Positions 339-49,053 of a DNA stretch of 64,000 nucleotides are shown one piece after another. The stretch lies in the IMG/VR virus record IMGVR_UViG_3300020580_000001, positions 1 through 64,000 of that record; one strand, 5' to 3'. A program made the position numbers and the translations under genes. Under the pieces are notes generated by a model that saw only the letters and a program-made list of their open reading frames with translations, was not told where the DNA came from and did no database searches. The stretch comes from a virus. Within the stretch, counting starts at the first letter, position 1. Each line of letters opens with the position of its first letter.

Positions 339-547
339 GATGCGCGCTTCGCTTCCATGCGCTTCATCGCTTCGCGCATCCATTTCAGCCTGCGATAGAC
401 ACGCTCGAAACTTTCCGCCTTGTGGCGCATTCCCAAATAGGAATTTCCATATTGAGCACGATACCATCCTGCAGCTTCGAAATAATCCTCTGGCTTTGGA
501 TTGTGAATTGGTTTAGAATGCTGTGGAAATCTCGCTTCAAAAAACAT
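335..547 (-). CDS. small hypothetical phage protein (70 aa)
   Basis: A 70-residue basic, aromatic-rich protein without a family I recognise. Its second half (KAESFERVYRRLKWMREAM) is strongly helical. It overlaps the gene upstream by 11 bp and the dCTP deaminase start by 4 bp, the tight packing seen across this operon, which is the main reason to accept it. No signal peptide or membrane segment. Confidence 0.6.
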   Translation of the reverse strand: MFFEARFPQHSKPIHNPKPEDYFEAAGWYRAQYGNSYLGMRHKAESFERVYRRLKWMREAMKRMEAKRAS

Positions 548-731
548 TATCCCATCCTTGCAAATAATATTTTGTCGTTGCCAATTCCAGCCTGGAAATG
601 GCCCGCGTCAAGAACCACAAATTGCTTGCCAAGTTCATCATGTAGCATTCACAAGTTGGATCGCGCGCCCAAACTACGCGGCCATAAAAATCCATTTTGT
701 AATATCCAGATATATCAATGTAATTGCTCAT
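537..731 (-). CDS. small hypothetical phage protein (64 aa)
   Basis: I chose the ATG at 729-731 (MSNYIDISGYY) because it overlaps the preceding stop as ATGA; a longer frame upstream would run into the neighbour. The protein is aromatic-rich and has two Cys about a third of the way in (CECYMMN). No family recognised. Its position between two coupled genes supports expression. Confidence 0.55.
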   Translation of the reverse strand: MSNYIDISGYYKMDFYGRVVWARDPTCECYMMNLASNLWFLTRAISRLELATTKYYLQGWDNVF

Positions 732-985
732 TTCATCGGTTCCTGCGGCTCTCCATCTCCAGCCCATATCATAAGTACTGACCAGTAGCCATGATGTCCT
801 TCAAGCACGGCCGTGGATAACCAACCAATTGCTTCATACGAAGCTCGGCGGGAATGCGGAACATAGCGATAATATGTTACATCTTCGACAGGCGTAACAG
901 CAGCTTCAATTGCTGATGTTCTAGCTGGCTTGGCGGTCATTAGGCGGCCCCGTAAACTGCCGTACTGGCGATGAAGCATTTTCAC
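728..985 (-). CDS. hypothetical phage protein (85 aa)
   Basis: An 85-residue protein starting MKMLHRQYG; its ATG overlaps the methyltransferase stop (ATGA). The segment from about residue 38 (YYRYVPHSRRASYEAIGWL) has alternating aromatic residues and ends in a Gly-Asp-Gly-Glu tail, like short DUF-type accessory proteins of Rhizobiales phages. No catalytic motif seen, function unknown. Confidence 0.6.
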   Translation of the reverse strand: MKMLHRQYGSLRGRLMTAKPARTSAIEAAVTPVEDVTYYRYVPHSRRASYEAIGWLSTAVLEGHHGYWSVLMIWAGDGEPQEPMK

Positions 986-3114
986 ACTCCACCAAACAAA
1001 GGTAGAGAATTGACGGACTCAGCTTGACCTCTCTTTTTTATAGATTCCCGCCGTCTTTCGTCAGGTCCGCTCATAACTAAAGAAAGCCTTTTCTCAATAT
1101 CACTAACGTACTCTAATTCTTTTTCGATAAGTATGGAATTGAAGCCCTCACGAAATGCGGCTTCGCCAAGTGTTCCGGTGCCGGCAAACAAATCGAGGCA
1201 AGTTCCGTTTTTGGGAGTGATAAGGCGGACTAAATATTGTATAAGATCAAGTGGCTTTATTGTTGGATGGCGTGATCCGAGCCTATCATCCGCGCCAGCT
1301 TTCGACGTGTAAAATATGCGCTGCACATCTTCTTGCGGAAAGCTCGCAAAGAAGTGCGCGGCAGAGCCGGAGTCGCTAAATCCGCCAAGCTTATCTTCAT
1401 AATGTTCGTGTGCCGGTCTCCTCCATCCATCATTAACATTTCCTGACGTCATCCCTCGCGAATATGATGGAGGCTTTACACCAGCCGTCGGCCCGCTCTC
1501 CGGAAAGCACGCCAAGACTTCCTCGCTGCCATCGTGAAGAAGGTTGGCCGGCCAGCGGGCGTGCGGTCCTTGATTAAAATCAGTGGTTCCAGTAAATGAG
1601 CCTACTGTAGATCCAGATCCACGATGTAACCCGGCAGCCTGATGATCAATATTTACACCAACGCGGCACGCCCCTACATTTATCGCGCCAGTGCCCCACT
1701 TCAACACATTCTGCGCAATGCTTTTCTCGGATATTGGCTTACGAGCTAGACAAATCGGCTCATGTGCAGGCTTTAGAGCCGTGCCAAGACCCTCGGGAAT
1801 AATCGGTTTGCCACACCGGCCACAAATCGGCCAGCTTCCCCGCGCTTGTGATCCGAATTCGTCGGATAAAGAGTCAGATTGCTCGGATGGTTGTTCGCCG
1901 GATTGTGGTCCTCGTGGTTGACGACTTCCGTTCTCATAAGAAGGAATCCGCACATCTGAGCCATCACCAATCGATGCTCCATGATGTAGCGATCCTTCCG
2001 TGCCATTTCGAGCGCCCATGTCGGCGCCTTCACATAGCGGACTCCGTTGTAATTCCCGTGCGGCCTCTTGAGCGTCACGCCACCCTTCCACGCAGGATTC
2101 CGTTCCATCGCCATTCCCTTGCCGGGACGTTTCTTGCCCTTTCCATTCGCCGCGAACGGCACTAGTCGAGCAGCATGCGCCTTCGCTCGACATGACCGGC
2201 TGCAATAATTGTTCTTGACCTTCCTTATCCACGCCAGAGGAATTGTCTTCTCCGTTCCACAAACTGGGCAAGCAACCGTCTGTTTCTGGTTGCGTGGCGA
2301 TGGAATTCCAGTCTTGCGAATTGATATGAGTTTGTTCGCGCATGCCCTCGAACAAGTTTTCTCTCTCGCTCCATGTTTGTGCGTCTTCGGTTCCCACACT
2401 TTCCCGCAAACTGCGCAAGTTCGTATCTTTCGCTTCGCCATTCCGAAGCATGTCCGGCTGCAATATGGCCCGCGCAACGCCGGTGACCTGTAAGGAAGAG
2501 GCAAGCGGCAATGCGCACAAACACCTGTCGATGCAAGTATTGATGTTTTTACTTTTGGGGAATCCAACCCCAAACTGCCAAGAAAGTCGCCCCGTGCCGC
2601 GTTCTCGAAAAAGCTTTCCAAACTGTCTGCGTTGCTCATCACTTAAGCTTTCCTCGAAAACGCGATATTCAGTTTCCGAATCCTTATCTAATAAGATCTC
2701 ATCTCTGATCTCAAATCCAGCATCTTCTATCGCGCATACCATTCTATGCGCCGTGCGGGTACCCCCAAATATTATCGCATAACCGCCTGGCTTGAGCACG
2801 CGCAGCACTTCTGCCCATAGTTCCGGCTGGAATGCAATGTTACCACCATCCCATTGCTTGCCCATGAAACCAGCCGCAGCACGCTTATATGGACTCACAG
2901 TACCGCCACCACCTTTATTTGACGGCAATTGTAAATTGAATTCGTCTCGTTCCAAGTTGCTCTTACCAAAGCGCTTCACAATCGACGTCAGGTGATACGG
3001 CGGGTCTGTTACGACGCTATCAACGCTATTATCTGCAAGCCCTTTGAGCACATCCCGGCAATCGCCAGCATGCAGCGTCACGCGCCCATTGAGGAATGAT
3101 CGCGGCTCGCTCAT
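982..3114 (-). CDS. beta-class DNA methyltransferase with an overprinted central insert
   Basis: A 710-residue SAM-dependent DNA methyltransferase. The catalytic DPPY motif is at 37-40 and the SAM-binding FAGTGT motif lies near the C-terminus, the motif order of beta-class enzymes, which usually methylate adenine N6. Conserved blocks include GFPKSKNINTCID before the insert and GTALKPAHEPICLARKP after it. Family members of this type are usually 350-450 residues. The excess is a hydrophilic, low-complexity stretch (about residues 195-425) exactly where an HNH nuclease is encoded in another frame of the same strand. The frame is open across the whole insert. It could protect phage DNA from restriction or regulate genes; whether the insert is tolerated is not known. 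Confidence 0.88.
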   Translation of the reverse strand: MSEPRSFLNGRVTLHAGDCRDVLKGLADNSVDSVVTDPPYHLTSIVKRFGKSNLERDEFNLQLPSNKGGGGTVSPYKRAAAGFMGKQWDGGNIAFQPELWAEVLRVLKPGGYAIIFGGTRTAHRMVCAIEDAGFEIRDEILLDKDSETEYRVFEESLSDEQRRQFGKLFRERGTGRLSWQFGVGFPKSKNINTCIDRCLCALPLASSLQVTGVARAILQPDMLRNGEAKDTNLRSLRESVGTEDAQTWSERENLFEGMREQTHINSQDWNSIATQPETDGCLPSLWNGEDNSSGVDKEGQEQLLQPVMSSEGACCSTSAVRGEWKGQETSRQGNGDGTESCVEGWRDAQEAARELQRSPLCEGADMGARNGTEGSLHHGASIGDGSDVRIPSYENGSRQPRGPQSGEQPSEQSDSLSDEFGSQARGSWPICGRCGKPIIPEGLGTALKPAHEPICLARKPISEKSIAQNVLKWGTGAINVGACRVGVNIDHQAAGLHRGSGSTVGSFTGTTDFNQGPHARWPANLLHDGSEEVLACFPESGPTAGVKPPSYSRGMTSGNVNDGWRRPAHEHYEDKLGGFSDSGSAAHFFASFPQEDVQRIFYTSKAGADDRLGSRHPTIKPLDLIQYLVRLITPKNGTCLDLFAGTGTLGEAAFREGFNSILIEKELEYVSDIEKRLSLVMSGPDERRRESIKKRGQAESVNSLPLFGGV
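1773..2642 (-). CDS. HNH endonuclease encoded in an alternative frame inside the methyltransferase
   Basis: This frame, on the same strand as the methyltransferase but shifted, encodes a convincing HNH nuclease. It has three treble-clef-like zinc units, each CxxC then CSRxC (Cys 42/45/61/65, 76/79/97/101, 125/128/147/151), followed by an HNH core: EHRLVMAQ (222-229), VNHEDHNPANNHPSNLTL (241-258) and HKRGE (265-269). The first ~38 codons only shadow conserved methyltransferase sequence, so the real start is probably internal, for example TTG at 2567 or ATG at 2441. The C-terminus reaches into the methyltransferase GTALKP block. Such nucleases are mobile; this looks like an insertion that kept both frames open. 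Expression is not proven. Confidence 0.75.
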   Translation of the reverse strand: MMSNADSLESFFENAARGDFLGSLGLDSPKVKTSILASTGVCAHCRLPLPYRSPALRGPYCSRTCFGMAKRKIRTCAVCGKVWEPKTHKHGAREKTCSRACANKLISIRKTGIPSPRNQKQTVACPVCGTEKTIPLAWIRKVKNNYCSRSCRAKAHAARLVPFAANGKGKKRPGKGMAMERNPAWKGGVTLKRPHGNYNGVRYVKAPTWALEMARKDRYIMEHRLVMAQMCGFLLMRTEVVNHEDHNPANNHPSNLTLYPTNSDHKRGEAGRFVAGVANRLFPRVLARL

Positions 3115-3305
3115 TCCAGCACAGCTTTCTTAATAATGTGGATTTCCGTCTTCATGTTTGCGAAATTGCGCGTGTCCACCTCGACGCCACAAATCCGCTT
3201 TCCAAGCGCTATTCCAAGCTGCTCATCTAAAGTCAATAATAGTAGCTGAATCTTATTTTCCACAACAGCAAGCAGAGCTTGTTCATGTGGTAGCAAATCG
3301 CTCAT
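3111..3305 (-). CDS. small hypothetical phage protein (64 aa)
   Basis: Start set at the ATG at 3303-3305 (MSDLLPHEQALLA), which overlaps the upstream stop as ATGA. The 64-residue product is a Leu-rich helical protein with a likely coiled coil (ENKIQLLLLTLDEQLGIAL). It overlaps the methyltransferase start by 4 bp. No family recognised. Confidence 0.6.
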   Translation of the reverse strand: MSDLLPHEQALLAVVENKIQLLLLTLDEQLGIALGKRICGVEVDTRNFANMKTEIHIIKKAVLE

Positions 3306-3508
3306 TTCAGCATCTCGTCGATCATTGATTGCCAAGAGCACAGCACTCCGCCACTGCTCGTTTTTATCCCGGCTAACAGAACATCTTCTGGCGGCTCGCG
3401 CGTGGCGGCAATCGCAGCACGGGCAATTTGTGCTAAATATGCATCCGGATTTGCGCCAGGCAAATTCCGATCAATCGCCTTCGCGACGCGATCTACCATT
3501 TCGCTCAT
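3302..3508 (-). CDS. small hypothetical phage protein (68 aa)
   Basis: Start taken at the ATG at 3506-3508 (MSEMVDRVAKAI), two bases after the stop of the 25-residue gene upstream; the longer frame would cover that gene. The N-terminal part (VDRVAKAIDRNLPGANPD) resembles short phage proteins whose role is unknown. The end overlaps the next start (ATGA). Confidence 0.6.
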   Translation of the reverse strand: MSEMVDRVAKAIDRNLPGANPDAYLAQIARAAIAATREPPEDVLLAGIKTSSGGVLCSWQSMIDEMLK

Positions 3509-3510
3509 GA

Positions 3511-3588
3511 TTAAATCCAATGTGCTAGCGTCACGCCGATCAAGGCTCCTATGAGGCCTGCTAACCATCCTTGCCAATAATCACTCAT
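3511..3588 (-). CDS. 25-aa single-pass membrane peptide
   Basis: A 25-codon gene from the ATG at 3586-3588 to TAA at 3511. Residues 7-23 are a hydrophobic glycine-containing span (GWLAGLIGALIGVTLAHW) fit for one membrane segment. It overlaps the end of the DnaA-like gene by 8 bp and stops 2 bp before the next start, so it exactly fills an otherwise empty slot in the operon. Function unknown. Confidence 0.5.
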   Translation of the reverse strand: MSDYWQGWLAGLIGALIGVTLAHWI

Positions 3589-4264
3589 GATTCAGCATCC
3601 CGCGCAGGATTGCGATGTCATCGGCAAGCGTCTTGTCAGTTTCAATCAACTTAATTATTCTTTGTATTGAATGGAGGACCGTCGTATGATCGCGGTTAAA
3701 CCGACGACCTATTTCCGCCATTGTGTTATTCGTCAATTCTTTCGATAGAAAGATAGCTATGTGGCGCGGACGTGCCATACGAGCATAATGTCTAACACAA
3801 ACAATGTCGGCCACGCACAAATTGAAATATCTTGCTGTCACGGCTTGAATGCGTGCGATTGTAGGCTTATCGGATTGTACTTCCGGCTGATAATCAAAGG
3901 GCTGCGCCCGTGTTTGTTCGCTGAAATCGCCGAAATAGTCTGCGCTTTCACGAATACATTCTATAATGTACTTTGTGAGTAAAATTGGGAGGTTGAGATT
4001 ACGCGCTTCTTCCACGCGTTCTTCGACGGACTTGATATTTTGTTGTGGTAATGGCGGGAATGCAGGCGCATGTTTCGGCTCTAGTTCTAGTCCTGGCTGT
4101 GGCTGTGGCACTGGCCGAGTATTAAGTCGTTTCCATATTTGATCGCGCCTTGCTATTAATTCGTCTAAATATGCCGAGCCGGTATGATGTTTGGATCGTA
4201 CCGCGTTAAATGCACCCATATTGGCATGCCTAATTCTGACATAATCGATTGGAGAGTCGGTCAT
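3581..4264 (-). CDS. DnaA domain IV-containing phage replication protein
   Basis: Start chosen at ATG 4264 (MTDSPIDYVR), 4 bp after the preceding stop; the longer frame lacks sense upstream. The 227-residue protein has a Pro-rich linker (PVPQPQPGLELEP) and a C-terminal DnaA-type DNA-binding domain: ARPRHIAIFLSKEL, AEIGRRFNRDHTTVLHSI. The DHTTVLH signature is the DnaA-box recognition motif. There is no AAA+ ATPase domain, so it cannot act as a full initiator; it may bind DnaA boxes at a phage origin or interfere with host initiation. Such truncated DnaA-like proteins occur in alphaproteobacterial phages and prophages. Confidence 0.82.
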   Translation of the reverse strand: MTDSPIDYVRIRHANMGAFNAVRSKHHTGSAYLDELIARRDQIWKRLNTRPVPQPQPGLELEPKHAPAFPPLPQQNIKSVEERVEEARNLNLPILLTKYIIECIRESADYFGDFSEQTRAQPFDYQPEVQSDKPTIARIQAVTARYFNLCVADIVCVRHYARMARPRHIAIFLSKELTNNTMAEIGRRFNRDHTTVLHSIQRIIKLIETDKTLADDIAILRGMLNHE

Positions 4265-47119: not shown

Positions 47120-49053
47120 CAGGCTAGCCTATCTAACGAACGCAATGTGCCGGCATGTATGGATTTCATATGCCTTGCTATCTCGGATGCCGCGGTATGC
47201 GGATCGGTCGACGCTAGTTGTATATTTGTGACCTGCTTCCTAGATCCGATATTATTCACCCACTGCTTGCGAACTTGATGCGGATGCCCGAACGAATGCC
47301 GCAAAGGGGCTCCGTGTCTAACAAATATATCCAAGAAATCATTTAGAGTCCGCCCTTGAAGGTGGCCCTCCTTCCGCGTAATCCCATAAGCAACTTTTGC
47401 TGCAACTTCTGGATTATTTAAATCCAACTTAGCGTGCCGTGGAAGCCCCGTCCATTGCTCAACCTGACGCGCATATTCAGCCGGGTCATTGCGGTCCGCG
47501 CGTGGGGCATATTTCTTAAGCTCGCCGGCTAATGTATCAACACCCTTCATATTTGCAAACATTGTTTTGTATCGAGATAATTGTTCAATTATTGCATGCG
47601 CAGCATCCGCCGGTGTCTCAAATTTCTTAAATCCTCCTTCCTTGGCTCTAATATTGCCTAGATTAAATCCTCGAATATCACTAGCTGCACCAGCGATTGG
47701 ATGGAATGCGCCTTGTGCACCAGGAATGTTAAAATCCTGCCCTGCCCCCACGTTCTGATCGTGAGAAAATGGACCATAACCGCCTTTCTTGATGTAATCT
47801 TGCGTTCCAGGCTCTGGCATGGCAAGTAGTGGTGTGGTTGGAGCTTTCTGAGCGTGCGTTTCCTCCTTCGGCATTCCCGGATGCCAGCCGGGATGATCGA
47901 GGCCATAAGGATCGTCTCCCTCGGCCTTCCCAATGCCAGGAGTTCTATTCCAAAGCCGTTCCGCAGCAGCAGCTCCAGAGCCGCCAAGCGCATGCCCAGG
48001 ATCTCCGGCAAATGCTTCGGCGCCTTCATATGCCGCCAGAAAGGCCACGCCACCAGGCAAGAGCCGGATCAATGCGCGGATTCCAAGAAGTCCAGCAAGC
48101 TTCAGCGCCCACTTACCGGCGATGTAAACCGCCAGCGCGTCCAGCACATAGCGAACCGCATGCAAGCCACCATGCTGGCCGTCCGGCGAGCCCAGAAGTC
48201 GGTCGAGCGCCGCCGTTGTCCTATCTAGCCCGGCAGCGATTAGATGCACCGCAGGAACCGCTACAGGCTCGATGTCCCTCCAGGCAAGCACAAGCTGGTC
48301 GACAACCGTTGTTAGATCGGCAACGATCTCCTCGGAATGCTCATTGACCCACTTCGTCATGTCGTCGAGGACGATGCCATATTTGTCAAATAGCGCCGCG
48401 GCCATTTTGCGGCCAAGAGTCTCAAGCGAATCGCCAAGCGCGTCCAATGACCGGATTAGAGCAACCGCCTTCTCGGCCGCCTCCGGAAGATATTCATTGC
48501 TCTCCATCTGTTTTTGAAAATACGGATCGTAGACGGCACGGCCGCGGGCGAGAATAACATCCTCGTCCGTCTTCATCAGCTCGAGCATGCCGACCTGCAT
48601 GTCGCCATGTTTGCGGCGCTCGGCCATCGCTTTCAAATATGCTTGATGGGCGGTTGCCGCATCTTTAAAATCTTCGTCTCTCAGTCCTAATTGCCTTTTT
48701 AACACATCCTTGTATTGAGGGTATAATCTAAGCTTTTCTGAGAATTTATCAAAATCAGCGTGAAATTTCTCTAAGGTCGTGCCGGACTGCACCATCGCCT
48801 TGCCGGCGGCATCAAGAGTCCTAATCGAGACATTTGCTTTTTGGGCTTCATAATATAGCTTGCTTAATCCGGCCGCGATCTTATCCGTCGCATATACAAT
48901 TGCTGTAGCCGCCGCGGTAATTGTCGGCACAACAATGGCAACCGCCTCGGCGAGCGCATCAAATGCCTTCTCCGCCTCGCGCACTTCCGTCGAGGTCGGC
49001 CCCTTCATCGAGAGGCTGACCAAGTAATGTTCTAGTATATTAGGGGCGGCCAT
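47119..49053 (-). CDS. tape measure protein 1 with a different C-terminal hydrolase
   Basis: A 644-residue protein. The N-terminal 300 residues align with tape measure 2 (SKLYYEAQKANVSIRTLDAA, VYDPYFQKQMESNEYLPEAA, AALFDKYGIVLDDMTKWVNE), followed by a hydrophobic stretch. The C-terminal domain differs: NLGNIRAKEGGFKKFETPAD, AAHAIIEQLSRYKTMFANMK and LKKYAPRADRNDPAEYARQV, a pattern of structural lysozyme-type peptidoglycan hydrolases. Two paralogous tape measures with different hydrolases in tandem is unusual. Confidence 0.82.
   Translation of the reverse strand: MAAPNILEHYLVSLSMKGPTSTEVREAEKAFDALAEAVAIVVPTITAAATAIVYATDKIAAGLSKLYYEAQKANVSIRTLDAAGKAMVQSGTTLEKFHADFDKFSEKLRLYPQYKDVLKRQLGLRDEDFKDAATAHQAYLKAMAERRKHGDMQVGMLELMKTDEDVILARGRAVYDPYFQKQMESNEYLPEAAEKAVALIRSLDALGDSLETLGRKMAAALFDKYGIVLDDMTKWVNEHSEEIVADLTTVVDQLVLAWRDIEPVAVPAVHLIAAGLDRTTAALDRLLGSPDGQHGGLHAVRYVLDALAVYIAGKWALKLAGLLGIRALIRLLPGGVAFLAAYEGAEAFAGDPGHALGGSGAAAAERLWNRTPGIGKAEGDDPYGLDHPGWHPGMPKEETHAQKAPTTPLLAMPEPGTQDYIKKGGYGPFSHDQNVGAGQDFNIPGAQGAFHPIAGAASDIRGFNLGNIRAKEGGFKKFETPADAAHAIIEQLSRYKTMFANMKGVDTLAGELKKYAPRADRNDPAEYARQVEQWTGLPRHAKLDLNNPEVAAKVAYGITRKEGHLQGRTLNDFLDIFVRHGAPLRHSFGHPHQVRKQWVNNIGSRKQVTNIQLASTDPHTAASEIARHMKSIHAGTLRSLDRLA

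Follow-up and report, generated by a model that had tools for sequence, protein, structure and literature searches.

An HNH endonuclease gene in a second frame of a phage DNA methyltransferase gene, with intein-borne relatives

How can one stretch of a phage DNA methyltransferase (MTase) gene be protein-like in two frames of the same strand, and what becomes of the MTase translated through it? The question is raised by a 64,000-nt stretch of DNA (positions 1 to 64,000 of IMG/VR record IMGVR_UViG_3300020580_000001, hereafter the window), which belongs to an 82.8-kb viral record carrying the myovirus genes for tail sheath, portal and head protease. The features on which the argument turns are the following.

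982..3114, minus strand: MTase open reading frame (ORF), a beta-class (CcrM-like) N6/N4 DNA methyltransferase of 710 aa, open throughout
1773..2642, minus strand: HNH endonuclease ORF of 289 aa, in the +1 frame relative to the MTase
about 1804..2523, minus strand: dual-coding insert, MTase residues 198-437, which replaces the native segment
2515..2523, minus strand: CxC in the MTase frame (C198, C200), one half of a proposed zinc staple, almost invariant among MTases of the loop type
2448..2519, minus strand: sequence motif of HNH zinc unit 1 (CAHC...YCSRTC)
2340..2417, minus strand: sequence motif of HNH zinc unit 2 (CAVC...TCSRAC)
2190..2270, minus strand: sequence motif of HNH zinc unit 3 (CPVC...YCSRSC)
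1863..1976, minus strand: HNH catalytic core, HNH residues 223-260, with conserved H, D, N, N, N and H (VVNHEDHNPANNHPSNL...DHK)
1813..1824, minus strand: CxxC in the MTase frame (C431, C434; WPICGRCGKP), the other half of the proposed staple, lying within the HNH ORF

The host gene encodes a beta-class amino DNA methyltransferase. The ORF matches N6_N4_Mtase (6.7e-25), carries DPPY early (residues 37-40) and an FxGxG-type motif late (FAGTGT, near residue 643), and in a fold search its product matched CcrM and M.BceJIV. Upstream of GVGFPKS, about 38 additional MTase residues (DKDSETEYRVFEESLSDEQRRQFGKLFRERGTGRLS) are encoded at window positions 2571-2687, and the HNH ORF begins within them.

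The second frame encodes an HNH nuclease. The preliminary description had placed this gene at 1773-2642, overprinted on the MTase gene in a foreign frame of the same strand, and both its position and its identity were borne out: the best HNH matches in a PHROG search were at 2.7e-12 and 8e-11, and Pfam HNH_3 matched at 7.7e-4, under its gathering cut-off. The three CxxC/CSRxC zinc units and the HNH core that had been described are likewise present, the core reading YIMEHRLV...VVNHEDHNPANNHPSNL.

Across the entire HNH ORF the MTase frame contains no stop. Synonymous permutation of the HNH codons predicts 10.6 stops in that frame, and none of 50,000 permutations was as low as the observed sequence; resampling with host MTase codon usage predicts 15.7, again with no replicate at zero (0 of 20,000). 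The remaining third frame over the HNH region of the window is ordinary, with seven stops, and in the converse test, in which the MTase-frame residues were held fixed, the open HNH frame had a P value of 0.017. The DNA is thus dual-coding, as had been proposed, and the MTase insert, previously estimated at about 230 residues, spans about 240. Elsewhere in the window, a 131-aa ORF at 47661-48053 (minus strand) lies entirely within the tail protein ORF at 47122-49053 (minus strand), in another frame; it had no PHROG match and is probably nested there by chance.

A search with the HNH protein alone drew relatives from annotated phages, GTDB genomes and IMG/VR. Each of the 76 distinct relatives tested is nested in the same MTase family and in the same phase as in the window. 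In every close relative, MTase codons begin at HNH codon position 3 and the remaining same-strand frame has from several to 23 stops; phage Mantra is the exception in phase. The 76 nested relatives together contain no host-frame stop where 583 are expected. The exclusion can be followed to a single nucleotide position: T at HNH codon position 3 before AA, AG or GA, the sole route to a stop, is never used in nested relatives (0 of 3,862), whereas T fills that position in 2,240 of 9,838 other contexts (23%). No avoidance is seen in 12 distant free-standing HNHs, which have 73 stops in the equivalent frame against 80.5 expected, T preceding AA, AG or GA at 73 of 312 positions. Homologues in which the other frame had filled with stops were also sought among the nested relatives, and none was found. 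L067 and L069 were considered as decayed HNHs and rejected, their stops sitting upstream of the HNH start. This is an old and widely distributed arrangement, and the notion of a lucky or recent event is contradicted by the shared phase and MTase family of all 76 relatives and by more than 40 contigs in which the HNH lies inside an intein.

The nested architecture also occurs in annotated phage records and in the finished chromosome of Cupriavidus necator (CP074390; L084), where the locus is apparently a prophage. IMG/VR contig L022 gave match coordinates and scores identical to those of L084. HNH ORFs in the +2 frame were found at different sites in genes of this MTase family, namely in Mantra, Escherichia phage BUCT618, L111 and L126, which indicates that the overprinting trick has evolved repeatedly or has spread. 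The BUCT618 ORF (OM735461; L119:920-1525; PF13391 at 3.1e-5, and PF01844), in the +2 frame of a site-specific DNA-methyltransferase, is a case of overprinting in its own right, from an annotated phage of E. coli. The remaining two are located at L111:4031-4492 (HNH_3 at 8.3e-20) and L126:509-916, and one of them lies near the MTase C-terminus.

What the MTase frame encodes across the overlap takes two forms. In the window and 40 other loci (loop type), no splicing domain is present and the native segment has been swapped for a long insert; in 36 loci (intein type), the MTase frame is a contiguous intein with the HNH out of frame between its splicing halves. Insert-bearing and insert-free MTases are both present in an 80-locus sample. 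The native segment that was replaced, between the GFPKS and GWGTALKP landmarks, is put at about 50-65 residues (59-74 aa in nine of ten uninserted MTases), and the loop-type insert spans about 175-260 residues between the same landmarks. The earlier proposal that the HNH gene had inserted without breaking the host frame therefore holds for the frame, which is open, but not for a clean insertion, since comparison with uninserted MTases shows the native segment to have been replaced.

The loop-type insert is probably a long disordered loop. In the window it is predicted to be without structure (pLDDT about 30-45; the mean over the whole MTase in the AlphaFold model is 55). No Hint motif was found in it and no intein was among the NCBIfam matches of the window, so that, as far as its sequence indicates, the window insert does not appear to be an intein. 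A tblastn search with the MTase-frame insert against annotated phages gave no match, as expected if conservation is in the HNH frame only.

The ends of the insert carry recurrent cysteines. Loop-type inserts typically start with CxC and finish with CxxCGKP, both motifs being found in 32 of the 41 loci; the nine not scored with both include truncated loci and L006, which has the motifs at a site of its own. Neither motif occurs in any of the ten uninserted MTases or, among 80 MTases fetched by their C-terminal flank, in any locus without the long insert. Wherever CxxC is present (35 of 35 loci) it lies within the HNH ORF, synonymous shuffling of the HNH retains both of its cysteines just 9% of the time, and TGT and TGC are both in use at all four Cys positions, a swap that changes the overlapping frame. 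The conserved motifs, the mixed codons and the low survival on shuffling indicate that the ends of the host-frame peptide are of importance. CxC and CxxC would probably bind one zinc and so staple the ends of the loop together. The MTase product over the overlap had been described as of low complexity; it is hydrophilic, yet the conserved CxxC inside the HNH ORF makes it more than filler.

The preliminary description had also suggested comparing substitution rates in both frames, and dN/dS-like ratios were obtained for both from close pairs over the HNH core. In the HNH frame the ratio is 0.36 for loop-type pairs and 0.32 for intein-type pairs, HNH-synonymous changes being about three times as frequent per opportunity as HNH-nonsynonymous ones, whereas the MTase frame over the same core gives 1.24 and 1.31. 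Purifying selection is thus evident in the HNH frame and drift in the MTase frame: within the core it is the HNH protein that is conserved, and the host frame does no more than stay open. In its catalytic residues and in the purifying selection acting on it, the HNH has properties expected of a homing endonuclease. Where the HNH N-terminus overlies the Hint-N half of the intein type, the host-frame ratio is 0.62 and the HNH ratio 0.89, and changes that are synonymous in both frames outpace every other class by a wide margin, which indicates that both frames are constrained in this overlap.

The residue-level drift of the loop (1.24) would also fit an explanation in which the HNH is functional and homing and the loop-bearing MTase is non-functional, its frame being held open merely to spare downstream genes from polar effects. 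Members of this phage MTase family can indeed be dispensable (PMC11855218). However, the motifs flanking the insert are conserved across the alignment, and so, in the host frame, are CxC and CxxC, of which CxxC lies within the overlap. We consider a non-functional MTase unlikely, although of the alternatives it is the one that survives best.

In the intein type, the host-frame insert has the form CLSEDTEIL...DQIVSRNHRCLVER...VWCVKVPTGAFVARRNGKIFITGN|SGFPKS (33 loci with the strict pattern and three partial), and three of its residues never vary: the first Cys, the terminal Asn and a Cys close to the C-terminal end. Pfam did not recognize an intein in the relatives; when PDB sequences were searched with a profile of the insert, solved inteins were matched, with AceL NrdHF as the best (3.1e-7). 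The predicted structure has two confident β-rich ends and an unstructured middle that corresponds to the region of HNH overprint, and in a fold search nearly all top matches of this model were inteins, the AceL NrdHF intein again being the best (TMt 0.78). With their Hint blocks and modeled fold, the 36 loci appear to be inteins, splicing itself being predicted.

A search seeded with the C-terminal splicing block only recovered 42 contigs with an out-of-frame HNH and 13 others, mostly inteins with in-frame middles, some of them in other host proteins. In L261-L270, the C-terminal splicing block (TVPTGAFVARRNGK.F.TGN) belongs to inteins of other phage proteins, again with in-frame middles, and the next residues are CISVWR, CPQ and others. 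The MTase intein at L217:1849-3843 has a shortened out-of-frame HNH, about 143 codons being open and only the zinc part being left; with its splicing frame intact, it is a probable decay stage of the homing cycle. EBPR siphovirus 2 (L112) has in gp50 a canonical-looking in-frame MTase intein at a different site (after GFMG), which is unnamed in the annotation.

The window HNH has two candidate starts, GTG at 2642-2640 and ATG at 2639-2637. With a Shine-Dalgarno-like GAGGA at 2655-2651, spaced 8 nt from it, the GTG at 2642 appears to be the best candidate. The first 41 or so HNH codons (2520-2642) overlie ordinary upstream MTase sequence, and no clear start codon adjoins zinc unit 1, the best start lying about 40 codons upstream. 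In some intein-type HNHs, a conserved ATG with a strong Shine-Dalgarno sequence lies within the Hint-N coding sequence (e.g. accaaaaaggagttttatctATG). The overlap with upstream MTase codons, the missing start directly at zinc unit 1 and the constant co-occurrence of MTase and nuclease would suit a programmed +1 frameshift yielding an MTase-HNH (or Hint-N-HNH) fusion, an arrangement resembling restriction-modification rather than homing. Against such a fusion, which we regard as quite improbable, stand the HNH's own ATG or GTG in many loci, several with good Shine-Dalgarno sequences, and the separate families that lie in the +2 and not the +1 frame. L217, which retains its intein with a truncated HNH, and the canonical inteins at the same site also behave as a homing element would.

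Removal at the RNA level, with the HNH gene riding in a self-splicing intron or in a byp-like segment that is bypassed, has very little probability left. Phage group I introns commonly carry HNH endonucleases, and this lends the idea some plausibility. Yet an Rfam search of window positions 500-4000 gave no match even at E ≤ 1 and revealed no catalytic RNA core, and half of the family has protein-splicing domains instead. An intron or a bypass would, moreover, need no open host frame, and stops are excluded from that frame in 76 loci. A chance open frame or a sequencing or assembly artefact, for which merely the short length of a single example could be cited, is already refuted for the family by the absence of the 583 expected stops and by the finished C. 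necator chromosome and annotated phage records.

In the HNH tree, the loop type forms one group except for L021, and the window groups with L011, L004, L006 and L013 with strong support (99/96). AU tests rejected neither the loop type nor the intein type as one clade (p-AU 0.14 and 0.25). An ectopic move may link the site of the intein with that of the loop.

The explanation that we consider likely is that a mobile HNH homing gene resides out of frame in a phage MTase gene, its second frame being a tolerated or self-removing insert. The HNH would be translated from its own internal start and would cleave MTase alleles that lack the insert, close to the conserved GFPKS/GTALKP stretch, and repair would copy the HNH gene into the cut allele, that is, homing. 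The host frame would stay open so that a complete MTase could still be produced; the host would survive because the MTase is spliced (intein type) or its loop tolerated (window type). In the intein type, splicing would remove the passenger, and the window and its closest relatives would keep the MTase fold intact around a loop that does not splice and whose ends are probably joined by the CxC/CxxC zinc site. We also favor, with more reserve, a broader interpretation: a two-frame selfish family in which one frame encodes an HNH homing endonuclease and the other the linker of a contiguous intein or a zinc-stapled loop, with Hint-N and the HNH N-terminus dual-coding and with ancestry shared with the loop of the window.

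On this interpretation, an endonuclease and its escape route, whether splicing or a tolerated loop, would be encoded by the same bases in two frames across divergent phages. The intein-borne sister form is the more surprising result, and the selection signature is unusually strong. Dual-coding selection can be studied in these loci, a large natural collection of long same-strand overlaps, and they supply separable genes for testing homing without splicing; they may also represent a step linking free-standing homing genes with conventional inteins and with inteins whose endonuclease is encoded separately. Annotation that allows one ORF per stretch can hide such nucleases and leave the methylase insert unexplained.

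Several known systems resemble parts of this arrangement. PHROG 15471, 20891 and 7545 and Pfam HNH_3 belong to the same nuclease sequence family as the window HNH, but these are domain families, and the free-standing members tested lack openness in the equivalent frame. The "fractured genes" of Dassa et al. (2009) are reportedly split inteins whose halves flank a free-standing endonuclease gene. As in the intein-type relatives, the endonuclease is encoded apart from the splicing polypeptide and between its halves; those inteins are split, however, whereas the intein type is contiguous and shares its DNA, in a different frame, with the endonuclease gene. The canonical methylase intein of mycobacteriophages Bobi, Lilac, Dorothy and Atcoo (PMC9957025) has its site (YG|C...TGN|SGFPKS) and homologous splicing halves in common with the intein-type relatives. 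Its middle is HEN-like and in the splicing frame, in contrast to the unstructured linker and out-of-frame HNH of the intein type.

Closest to the window is the ShiLan domain of mycobacteriophage methylases, an HNH encoded out of frame; its host frame is open, and no intein or intron is involved (PMC11855218). Both place an HNH with zinc units inside a phage DNA methylase gene, in another frame of the same strand, with a stop-free host frame, no intron or intein signature and a predicted loop in the MTase. Mantra (L001), a phage of the ShiLan study (PMC11855218), was recovered in our HNH search; its HNH is in the +2 frame, lies between EPVVVARKP repeats and has 24.5% identity, whereas the window HNH is in the +1 frame at another site. 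The family of the window differs further in replacing a native segment, in the CxC and CxxC at the insert ends and in having intein-borne sisters. Judged from these sequence features, the window is of the same kind as the ShiLan-type insertions but is not the same element. The literature searched describes no intein with an out-of-frame endonuclease, a preprint on non-canonical actinophage inteins (10.1101/2025.01.02.630785) lying outside that coverage. Out-of-frame HNHs in phage methylases have thus already been published, and the intein with an out-of-frame endonuclease appears to be new relative to the literature covered.
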